Positions 28,250 to 40,439 of a DNA stretch of 64,000 bases are shown piece after piece. The notes below the pieces were generated by a model that was not told the DNA's origin, did no database searches, and worked only from the letters and a program-made list of their open reading frames with translations. Each line of letters starts with the position of its first letter. Position 1 is the first letter of the stretch. The stretch comes from Methylobacterium sp. Leaf112 (lineage in GTDB: Bacteria; Pseudomonadota; Alphaproteobacteria; Rhizobiales; Beijerinckiaceae), in assembly GCF_001423295.1 (NCBI RefSeq), contig NZ_LMNG01000004.1, forward strand, positions 1-64,000, read 5' to 3'. Made by a program: the position numbers and the translations under genes.

Positions 28250-28507
28250 TCAGCGCGCGGTGCGCGACCGGATTGCGGGGTGGGGCGCCCGGAGCGACCC
28301 GGTGGTGGCGACGTCCGCACCCGCCACCCAAGCCGGGACCGCTCCGTCGAGGCGCCGCCGGTCGTTCGCAGGCGCCCCCGCGACGCCGCCCGGCGCCGTG
28401 ACGGCCGGAATGCCGGCGGGGGCCGTGTAGCTCTGGGCGGACGCGGCGCCGGTCAGACCGGCGACGGCCGTGAGAGCGAGGACCGACAGGGTGAGGATAC
28501 GGGACAT
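28250..28507 (-). CDS. Small exported AQS-PAG-TAPGG protein, paralog 1
   Basis: An 85-residue secreted protein of unknown function. A Sec signal peptide covers ~1-24 (MSRILTLSVLALTAVAGLTG, cut after ASA), followed by QSYTAPAGIPAVTAPGG. The tail has a DVATTGSLRAPHP segment shared with paralog 2. Three related genes occur in this window (35583-35834, 39885-40094, 40179-40439). ATG 28507 follows GGAGCCCATC; that ribosome binding site lies in one arm of an inverted repeat. It is the last gene before a strong terminator and starts 132 bases after the importer ATPase gene ends, so it may be the final cistron of that operon or have its own promoter. Confidence 0.7.
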   Translation of the reverse strand: MSRILTLSVLALTAVAGLTGAASAQSYTAPAGIPAVTAPGGVAGAPANDRRRLDGAVPAWVAGADVATTGSLRAPHPAIRSRTAR

Positions 28508-28512
28508 GATGG

Positions 28513-28558
28513 GCTCCATCGGTTCGGTGTGCCGACGTTGGCCGGCTTCTGATGGAGC
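28513..28558 (-). promoter_or_regulatory. 5' UTR stem that covers the ribosome binding site of the small exported gene
   Basis: On the minus strand, GCTCCATC (28558-28551) can pair perfectly with GATGGAGC (28520-28513), which contains the GGAG ribosome-binding sequence six bases before the start codon at 28507. The loop is 30 bases long. The 8-bp pairing could limit translation. No riboswitch class is recognised. Confidence 0.4.
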
Positions 28559-28638
28559 GAAGATGGACCCGGACCGCCCTCCGAAAAACCCGAAAAGACT
28601 CGATGGAAACGTTCGATGAAATCGAAAAGACAGATGCT

Positions 28639-30183
28639 TCAGTGATGCCCGGCCATGTGCCGGCCGATAGTGCCGGCCTCGGCCGCGGCCGCCGGGGTCT
28701 CGTAGACGAGGCGCCCGTCCGACATCACCAGGATACGGTCGGACAGTTCCAGGATCTCGTCGAGGTCCTCGCTGATCAGCAGCACCGCCGCCCCGGCATT
28801 GCGCGCGGCGACGATCCGGTTGCGGATCTCGGAGACCGCCGCGAAGTCGAGGCCGAAGCACGGATTGACCACGATGAGGAGATCGACGGGATCGGTGAGC
28901 TCGCGCGCCAGCACGGCCCGCTGCACGTTGCCGCCCGACAGGGTCGCGATGGGGGCCTCGGCGGAGGCCGTCTTCACCTTGAACCGTGCGATCAGCTCCC
29001 TGGCCCGGGCCGCCATGGCACGCTTGTCGAGCCACAGGGTCGGGGGGCCGCCGGCCGCGTCGCCGCGCCGGTCGAAGGCGCGGAAGGCGAGGTTCTCGGA
29101 CACCGACATGCGGGGCGCGCAGGCGTTGCGCAGGGGCTCCTCCGGGATGAACCGGACCTTTCGCGATCGGCTCTCGGAACGGGTGCCGGAATAGGGTGCG
29201 CCCGCGACGATCACCCGACCGGCGGTGGCGCGGATCTGCCCGCCGAGCACGTCGGCGAGTTCCTTCTGGCCGTTGCCGGAGACGCCGGCGATGCCCACGA
29301 TCTCCCGGGCGCGCACCCGCAGGCTGTCGATGGCGATGTGGCGCAGGCCGGACGGGTCGGTGGCGGTGACGCCCTCGACCCGGAGCACCTCGCGGCCCGC
29401 GTCCGCGTCGCCGATCCGGGCCGCGAGGGTCCGCACGGTCCGCTCGCCGATCATCAGTGCCGCCATGTCGTCGCGCGAGAGCGTCCCGACGGCACCGCCA
29501 CCGACGAGGCGGCCCCGGCGCAGGACGCTCAAGGACCGCGCGAAGGTCTCGACCTCGTGGAACTTGTGGCTGATCATCAGCACGGTGAGGTCGCCGCGGT
29601 CGGTCATGGCGCGCAGCAGACCCAGCACCTCCTCGGCCTCGGAGGGCGTCAGCACCGAGGTCGGCTCGTCGAGGATGAGGAACCGGGCCTCGAGGTAGAG
29701 CTGCTTGACGATCTCGAGCTTCTGCTTCTCGCCCGCCGCCAGCTCCGCCACGGGCCGGTCGAGGTTCAGGCGGAACGGCATCCGGTCCATGAAATCCGCC
29801 AGCACGGCGCGCTGGGCCTTCCAGTCGAGGATCGCCGGCGCGTCGGCGCGCGCGATGACGAGGTTCTCGGCGCCCGTGAGGGACGGCACCAGGGTGAAGT
29901 GCTGATAGACCATGCCGAGGCCGCGCGCCTGCGCACCCTTCGGATTCGTGATCTCGGCCTCGCGCCCATCGACCAGGACCGTGCCCGCGGTCGGGGCGTA
30001 GAAGCCCATCACGCACTTGACGAGGGTCGACTTGCCGGCGCCGTTCTCGCCCAGCAGGGCGTGGAAGCCGCCCCGCTCGATCTTCATGGAGACGTCGTCG
30101 AGGGCCGCATGCGCGCCGAAGCGCTTCGTCATGCCGATGGTCTCGATGCCGATGGCGCGGGGCAGGGCGGGGGTGCTGTCCAT
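28639..30183 (-). CDS. BMP-type ABC importer ATPase (importer 1)
   Basis: A 514-residue tandem ATPase like those of the nucleoside/simple-sugar (BmpA-YufO) importers. Domain 1 has Walker A GENGAGKST and Walker B LILDEPTSVLTP, but its signature motif reads LAAGEKQ in place of LSxGE. Domain 2 is partly degenerate: VSGNGQ replaces Walker A, and LSGGNVQ is the signature. It energises the two permeases at 31963-34075 with the binding protein at 34135. The start at 30183 is five bases after the biuret hydrolase stop. Importer 2 has a paralog at 43708. Confidence 0.88.
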   Translation of the reverse strand: MDSTPALPRAIGIETIGMTKRFGAHAALDDVSMKIERGGFHALLGENGAGKSTLVKCVMGFYAPTAGTVLVDGREAEITNPKGAQARGLGMVYQHFTLVPSLTGAENLVIARADAPAILDWKAQRAVLADFMDRMPFRLNLDRPVAELAAGEKQKLEIVKQLYLEARFLILDEPTSVLTPSEAEEVLGLLRAMTDRGDLTVLMISHKFHEVETFARSLSVLRRGRLVGGGAVGTLSRDDMAALMIGERTVRTLAARIGDADAGREVLRVEGVTATDPSGLRHIAIDSLRVRAREIVGIAGVSGNGQKELADVLGGQIRATAGRVIVAGAPYSGTRSESRSRKVRFIPEEPLRNACAPRMSVSENLAFRAFDRRGDAAGGPPTLWLDKRAMAARARELIARFKVKTASAEAPIATLSGGNVQRAVLARELTDPVDLLIVVNPCFGLDFAAVSEIRNRIVAARNAGAAVLLISEDLDEILELSDRILVMSDGRLVYETPAAAAEAGTIGRHMAGHH

Positions 30184-39728: not shown

Positions 39729-39884
39729 CGTACCTCACCAGATTCCCGGTCGCAGCCGGTTCTCGCCTGGAGCACGGCGGCGCAGCGGGCGTTTGGTGAG
39801 AGGCACTCGAGGCCGGGCCGGCATGGCTATTGCTGTGCTCCGATCCGCGAACCCGGCCCAGGGCCGGCGGCAGGAGCGTATCCG

Positions 39885-40094
39885 ATGCGTCCGTCCCGAA
39901 TCATCTGCCTCGGCCTTCCCATGATGGGTTGGCTCCTCGCAGGATGCCTGTTCGGCGGTGGCGTCCTCGGAGTGGCACCCGAAGCCCGGGCGCAAGCCAG
40001 CCTGACGCCTCCGGCCGGTCAATCGCGCCTCACGGCCCCGGGCGGCCTTCGCGGACGAGCGATCCGCCGCCACGGAACGCATCGTCGTCGCTGA
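39885..40094 (+). CDS. Small exported PPAG-TAPGG protein, paralog 3
   Basis: 69 residues. A hydrophobic signal peptide (~1-37, ending EARAQA) with an internal cysteine in LLAGCLFGG that could be a lipobox, then ASLTPPAGQSRLTAPGGLRGRA and a basic tail HGTHRRR. The PAG...TAPGG..GRA motif matches the other three paralogs. ATG 39885 is preceded by GGAGCG. Function unknown. Confidence 0.6.
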   Translation: MRPSRIICLGLPMMGWLLAGCLFGGGVLGVAPEARAQASLTPPAGQSRLTAPGGLRGRAIRRHGTHRRR

Positions 40095-40178
40095 CCCGGC
40101 GGAACCGCCAGGGCCGCGTTCCGTCGCCTCGACAGAAACCTGCTTCTCCCCTTCGACTGACCTGGAAGGTACCCGATC

Positions 40179-40439
40179 ATGCGCCTGACAATTTCGGTCC
40201 TCGCCCTGTGCGGGGTGTTCGGCCTGGCCGGCCCGGCACTCGCCCAATCCGTGGGTGCCCCGGCCGGCAGCGACCCCGCCACGGCTCCCGGCGGCACCGA
40301 GGGCCGCGCCGGCCCCCGGAACGAGCGGGAAGCGATTCGAAGCGGCGATGCCATTCCGGCCCCACCCGGCATCGGCGAGCCGATTCTCCCGCCATCCGGC
40401 ATCCCGACGCCCGACCGGCCGCCGGCACCGCGCCCCTGA
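40179..40439 (+). CDS. Small exported AQS-PAG-TAPGG protein, paralog 4
   Basis: 86 residues. Signal peptide ~1-22 (MRLTISVLALCGVFGLAGP, cleavage after ALA), then QSVGAPAGSDPATAPGG and TEGRAGPR, and a Pro-rich tail (PPSGIPTPDRPPAPRP). GGAAGG lies eight bases before the ATG. It is tandem with paralog 3 and convergent with the importer 2 binding-protein gene. Function unknown. Confidence 0.65.
   Translation: MRLTISVLALCGVFGLAGPALAQSVGAPAGSDPATAPGGTEGRAGPRNEREAIRSGDAIPAPPGIGEPILPPSGIPTPDRPPAPRP

Follow-up and report, generated by a model that had tools for sequence, protein, structure and literature searches.

Positions 1 to 64,000 of contig NZ_LMNG01000004.1 from Methylobacterium sp. Leaf112 (i.e. 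the window, the whole 64,000-nucleotide stretch that was analysed) carry four small open reading frames (ORFs), p1 to p4, which lie around two BMP-type importers and encode related, predicted exported proteins of 69–86 amino acids. The p1 gene (28250..28507, minus strand, 85 amino acids) is located between the importer-1 ATPase gene and the gene of a LysR-type regulator, and p2 (35583..35834, minus strand, 83 amino acids) between the uricase gene and BMP1, the substrate-binding protein gene of importer 1, all on the same strand. The product of p3 (39885..40094, plus strand, 69 amino acids) has an Arg-rich basic tail, and its gene is the first of a pair with p4 (40179..40439, plus strand, 86 amino acids), which encodes a conserved NExEAIRSGDA block and a Pro-rich tail and is tail-to-tail with BMP2, the substrate-binding protein gene of importer 2. 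By reading of the loci, p1, p2, p3 and p4 were assigned to subfamilies A', A, B and C, respectively.

All four proteins have a hydrophobic, signal-peptide-like N-terminus ending in AxA-Q, followed a few residues later by a PAG-x(4-5)-TAPGG core. The core is preceded by AQS in p1, p2 and p4 and by AQAS in p3; p2, p3 and p4, but not p1, have GRA after it, whilst a TGS(L/V)R segment is common to p1 and p2. A preliminary description of this DNA had listed these ORFs and motifs, which were all recovered, and had recognised no named family, in agreement with Pfam and NCBIfam searches with p1–p4 that returned no fitting model. The p3 hydrophobic stretch contains LAGC, but a lipoprotein assignment was rejected as the other B sequences, on reading of the alignment, keep no LxxC lipobox.

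The coding status of the ORFs was examined by comparison with relatives (23 A, 19 B and 25 C sequences), a check that had been proposed with the preliminary description. Median core dN/dS values were 0.06, 0.12 and 0.22 for A, B and C, as compared to 0.43–0.76 for the tails; these ratios are rough, being derived only from pairs with a synonymous divergence (pS) of 0.15–0.7 and from far-diverged synonymous sites. Because relatives keep the core despite this heavy synonymous divergence (median core pS of ~0.45–0.52), the motif is beyond chance and the four ORFs are real protein-coding genes with a core under purifying selection.

Subfamilies, genomic position and taxonomic range

The wider distribution was examined in 59 genomes of the genus, taken as Methylobacterium including Methylorubrum and judged by the record titles of related loci. 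An A2 profile matched 148 places in 44 of these genomes. A total of 88 places had a BMP or uricase gene no more than 10 kb away; the other 60 were farther than 10 kb from any such gene found and included members of two further subfamilies (D and E, below), some A-type genes and some short-contig matches. A close BMP2 orthologue was present in 27 genomes, all of which carry the family, with a member within 6 kb in 26 and within 200 bp in 19. Since only 13 of 38 other BMP genes had a member within 10 kb, as compared to 26 of 27 BMP2 orthologues within 6 kb, the family is linked to these importer loci and not to BMP importers at large, which narrows the positional link originally proposed. For nine of the 38, BMP1 among them, a member was only 240–520 bp away, and for uricase 21 of 51 places had a member within 10 kb.

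The gene arrangements of the window recur. B was followed by C for 20 of 20 B genes, with gaps of 41–219 bp, and the p2 location between uricase and BMP1 was found in many relatives. The LysR-adjacent position of p1-type genes was also seen in L044, L117, L121, L130–L132 and L134. A-type genes in L095, L096, L098, L099 and L104 had no queried purine-type neighbours within the ~4 kb fetched on each side.

Subfamily A (i.e. p2-like) proteins often have a TTGSVR end, A' (p1-like) genes adjoin LysR, B proteins are short with a basic tail, and C proteins combine the NExEAIRSGDA block with a Pro-rich tail. Subfamily E (AQTVLxPSGDSAVTQPGGTEG..NxxEAIRxGD) is C-like with a TQPGG core and occupies a separate locus (L101, L102, L105–L108, L111, L025, L027 and L218–L220), where its neighbours are an AraC-type regulator (by Pfam for L102 and L107), an MFS transporter (by Pfam for L102) and a relative of g47, the first gene of importer 2; xanthine dehydrogenase/aldehyde oxidase-type genes were found near E in L105 (by Pfam) and in its near-copy L108. 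Five further C-like genes lie elsewhere (L221–L225; i.e. G001:C30, G073:C62, G023:C132, G068:C158 and G046:C79), and these have a mature start of ARG- rather than an AQ-like one, TAPGGT(E/Q)G and an EA(I/V/A)xSGxA block.

Members of the D group, for which no name or function was found, are small exported Methylobacterium proteins with a signal peptide, a related SYTAPAG core and a TTGS motif in common with A but with a different C-terminal module (EGN..QYGxTSGG). A D query matched every one of the 59 genomes (1–12 matches each, some being A-type cross-matches). The preliminary count of four paralogs flanking the importers missed a fifth relative in the Leaf112 genome, a D gene at G000:C7:27925-28191 (i.e. 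L003 1480-1749), and the family thus extends beyond these importers; D is also present in L042. Two hybrids were observed, one in the B position of L060 (~8001-8230) with a C block and a basic tail, and one in L113 (~5930) with an A-type core and a C-like NAAEAIDSGQ block; these sequences look as if short modules had been exchanged.

Credible matches were confined to the genus and one metagenome-assembled genome titled Beijerinckiaceae. A contig scan yielded 21 loci, of which 20 bear Methylobacterium or Methylorubrum in the title; the other is this metagenome-assembled genome (L051), whose importer genes are 85–96% identical to those of the window. None of 16 genomes outside the genus had a credible member; the sole match in that search (G028, E 0.0036) was rejected as the DNA was read as an inorganic pyrophosphatase gene. 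In an order-wide search 5 of 397 genomes matched, and in a family-rank search 6 of 199, all from the same genus, with at most 13 and with 28 candidates scored per genome, respectively, so that distant relatives could be missed. Among the titles returned by a literature search none was about the PAG-TAPGG proteins. They make up a new family, restricted to this lineage and associated with an uptake system of a known type.

Promoter elements and co-occurrence with g47

A sigma-54-type element (CGGCATGGCTATTGCT; 39819..39834, plus strand) is located 50 bp before the p3 start. Elements before B genes follow GG-N10-GC (about CGGCAY-N5-TTGC) at 42–63 bp ahead of the start and form a conserved island in aligned upstream regions. 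A score of at least 9 of 12 was reached by 18 of 19 B sequences, a set that does not include the B gene of L052, as compared to a fraction of 0.044 of 4000 random 200-bp stretches; the exception was L062. In the region loci, scanned as 250-bp stretches with approximate anchors against the background computed for 200 bp, 7 of 8 B starts reached at least 9, one of the eight (L131) being from the same genome as L054. No element with a score of at least 9 was found before any of 27 A or 27 C starts; for C, such an absence would be expected were it transcribed together with B. Among seven further C starts, two scored at least 9, namely L125 (10, at 70 bp; no B in the profile scan) and L118 (9, at 164 bp).

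The g47 gene (46709..47728, minus strand) encodes a predicted exported, AtzS-like protein and is also preceded by a sigma-54-type element in the window (47768..47783, minus strand, 39 bp before g47, score 10 of 12) and in 5 of 6 other loci tested. Sites upstream of the xanthine permease gene (38713-38728, minus strand), the OHCU decarboxylase/HIU hydrolase fusion gene (38761-38776, plus strand) and the allophanate hydrolase gene likewise score 10.

The presence of C/E-type genes followed that of g47. In the 59 genomes both were found in 40, C/E alone in none, g47 alone in three and neither in 16 (phi 0.89), whilst phi was 0.63 for C/E and BMP2. Where no BMP2 orthologue was detected, C was 28 bp (G044) or 250 bp (G069) from g47, and in eight genomes, all eight read as E, the distance between E and a relative of g47 was between 207 bp and 6.8 kb. 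Uricase was rejected as a driver of C/E presence (phi −0.02). These counts include as C/E-positive an A/C hybrid in G051 (L113, E 3e-14); scored as negative, it would give 39 genomes with both and four with g47 only. All g47 matches that were split or had flagged in-frame stops were counted as present, and the query began ~38 residues before the likely start.

Shared ancestry was examined on an rpoB tree built from sequences required to contain a GRHGNKG motif, with another anchor allowed for the partial G072 sequence. The phi of 0.89 was reached in none of 2000 simulations of independent evolution, and the BMP2 association was likewise above all 2000. Of 13 independent pairs differing in g47, 12 differed in C/E in the same sense (11 if G051 is scored as negative); the discordant pair involves G020. 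In that genome, ~90 bp from g47, there is a C-like stretch that lacks a signal peptide in frame (L097 ~4560-4800, G020:C81).

An accessory role in nitrogen uptake, one of two possibilities raised in the preliminary description, is favoured by the conserved element before p3–p4, and the likely partner shifts from BMP importers in general to an AtzS/AtzT-like purine system (phi of 0.89 for g47 vs 0.63 for BMP2).

Interpretation and competing explanations

The best explanation, which may about equally prove right or wrong, is that these proteins assist purine uptake as an accessory in the envelope that is specific to this lineage and regulated by nitrogen. The four ORFs belong to a Methylobacterium family of small, predicted exported and probably disordered envelope proteins. 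Induction of p3–p4 would occur under nitrogen limitation and their products would act in the periplasm as accessories of an uptake route of the type of AtzSTUVW, the transport system of Pseudomonas sp. ADP plasmid pADP-1, with the C/E type at or near the g47 channel. One plausible mechanism is that the TAPGG segment, which immediately follows the signal-peptidase site, would dock on an envelope partner that the proteins have in common, whilst the tail, basic in B and mildly acidic and Pro-rich in C, would do a specific job; A and A' may serve importer 1 and the region of its LysR regulator in a comparable way. In an AlphaFold model of C (mean pLDDT 64) a signal helix and one short helix (46–55) were observed, with no confident fold beyond short helices. 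As the model has just this one short helix past the signal peptide, an enzymatic function is less likely for C than one in docking or as a linker. The median charge of the mature protein is +9 for B and −2 for C, and such opposite charges would, as speculation, fit a B-C complex.

Several observations weigh against an accessory role in purine uptake. Sigma-54-like sites in the window were not above chance in number (10 vs 7.5), and therefore the sigma-54 claim rests on conserved position; one score-10 site before BMP2 falls inside a permease gene. E genes lie beside an AraC-type regulator and none of seven E starts carried an element at score 9, so that, as far as these data go, E falls outside the nitrogen control. 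The AlphaFold model of g47 (5 sequences) had a pLDDT of 31 and was unusable, so that this protein is a predicted barrel. The three genomes with g47 alone (G020, G042 and G074) all have an A-type gene, and g47 was not detected on the contigs that carry the five further C-like genes. Stretches of pADP-1 and of an A. leguminum plasmid, with two AtzS-type operons, hold no ORF with the PAG-TAPGG motif, indicating that the accessory is not needed in general. Finally, 37 of 43 C/E places are within 20 kb of g47, or 37 of 48 when the five further C-like genes are counted. These distances are based on 43 of 74 C/E match rows (E ≤1e-20); the 31 dropped rows, only part of which were read, looked mostly like A-type cross-hits, and five proved to be these C-like genes, in genomes already C/E-positive, leaving presence and absence unchanged.

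As most C/E places lie this close to g47, the co-occurrence partly reflects inheritance or loss as a block. A possible, if improbable, alternative is that the small genes are linked cargo without a direct part in purine uptake, riding on a nitrogen-scavenging island that is often gained and lost and sharing its fate and promoter logic. Frequent switching on the rpoB tree (14 changes for C/E and 13 for g47, close to shuffled labels) is in keeping with this explanation, as is the side-by-side occurrence of A and A' before LysR where importer 1 is gone or has moved (L044, L121, L132 and L134). However, E and g47 were both kept when 61–79 kb apart (G002, G053 and G065) or on different contigs (G052), all four genes being read as E, whilst a single-contig relative (G010) has neither. 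Furthermore, C lies directly beside g47 in G044 and G069, and uricase of the same region does not track C/E.

It is rather unlikely that A, B, C and E are simply offshoots of the broad D superfamily with a general envelope or stress role and no specific partner at these loci. The ubiquity of D matches and the N-terminal core and TTGS motif of the best relatives speak for this possibility, as do the further C-like genes elsewhere in five genomes, and the suggestion in the preliminary description of an unrelated expanded family that happens to sit here was partly borne out by the D matches. The C/E type is nevertheless patchy and matched to g47 whereas D is universal in the sample, and B-C has its own conserved sigma-54-type element.

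A bolder version of the accessory model, in which PAGx(4-5)TAPGG would be a portable docking tag that brings different tails (B, C, A, E and D) to one shared partner in the envelope, with AtzS-like purine channels being equipped by the C/E tail, is distinctly doubtful. The ORFs are short and near operon ends with variable tails, but a main function as RNA or as untranslated leaders of the neighbouring importer genes is scarcely credible given selection on the protein core (dN/dS 0.06–0.22), retention of the signal peptide and cleavage site, and the convergent orientation of B-C and BMP2, for which the pair is not a leader.

If the docking-tag version is true, the family would represent lineage-specific peptide accessory subunits for outer-membrane nutrient uptake, with the B-C pair under nitrogen control. 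Few components of the bacterial envelope are as poorly understood as small exported proteins; here the family, its probable class of regulator (sigma-54, nitrogen) and a probable partner (AtzS-like channel and AtzT-like importer) were derived from sequence alone, making the function of a hypothetical protein testable.

The nitrogen-scavenging island and comparison with known systems

The island in the window encodes uricase (36291..37130, minus strand, PF01014), an NCS2 xanthine permease (37252..38655, minus strand), the OHCU decarboxylase/HIU hydrolase fusion (38832..39728, plus strand, upstream of p3–p4 and on the same strand), 8-oxoguanine deaminase, biuret amidohydrolase (30189-31436, minus strand), formamidase, allophanate hydrolase (25155-27374, minus strand), an AtzE-type amidase (49612-51231, plus strand) and the two BMP importers. 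Since the AtzE-type amidase, allophanate hydrolase and biuret amidohydrolase share the island with urate genes, it may serve biuret or cyanuric-acid-like compounds besides purines. The nearest models for the LysR-type regulator adjoining p1 (27122..28174, minus strand) are PunR and AllS, both below cut-offs. BMP1 (34135..35421, minus strand) has an uncertain start.

Importer 2 is encoded on the minus strand in the order g47, 8-oxoguanine deaminase-type amidohydrolase (45282..46685; NF006055, E 7.2e-205, over the cut-off), ATPase (ORF 43708..45771, PF00005, with the true start further in), two permeases (42607-43695 and 41652-42578; PF02653 in both, and synteny) and AtzT-like BMP2 (40508..41593, PF02608). 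The g47 protein had no Pfam match even at E 10 and no meaningful match to PDB sequences. It is conserved in the genus, and plasmid records of Pseudomonas, Paraburkholderia, Halomonas and others contain distant homologues, one of them annotated as DUF5020. The g47 protein, probably an outer-membrane barrel, has an N-terminal hydrophobic stretch and a C-terminal Phe.

Weak N-terminal likenesses to two named families were rejected. The p2 match to the acid-shock protein Asr (NF033636, E 0.14) scored 13 bits vs a cut-off of 50, and that of a D protein to the His-rich BRANT model (NF047414, E 0.043) scored 14.9 bits vs a cut-off of 44, p1–p4 having no BRANT match up to E 1; both matches begin in the signal-peptide region.

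The closest known system is AtzSTUVW of pADP-1, for which AtzR is the regulator. Importer 2 matches its gene set (one ATPase, two permeases and an amidohydrolase gene in the run) but not its order after the first gene, and the two amidohydrolases have no useful similarity. The g47 protein is 33% identical over 289 aligned columns to the product of the pADP-1 gene in the AtzS position, which is first in the run in both and was assigned as AtzS by gene order. The pADP-1 BMP protein is 51% identical to BMP2 over 332 aligned columns and 36% identical to BMP1; it was taken to be AtzT because BMP2 matches PDB 6pi5, an atrazine periplasmic binding protein (E 3.7e-108).

AtzT is described as binding guanine with a KD of ~110 nM (PMC6834077). 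By reading of the alignment, the guanine contacts listed in that source were kept in BMP2 at Tyr45, Ser97, Phe98, Glu165 and Trp194, whereas Asn218 and Asn220 are His and Asp in both BMP2 and BMP1; the importer ligand may therefore differ from that of AtzT. BMP1 additionally has Gln for Glu165, and importers 1 and 2 may thus differ in the purine-like ligand that they take up. The same source describes the atz operons as sigma-54-dependent and induced by nitrogen starvation (PMC6834077), a mode of control with which the sigma-54-type elements before p3 and g47, as read from the DNA, are consistent.

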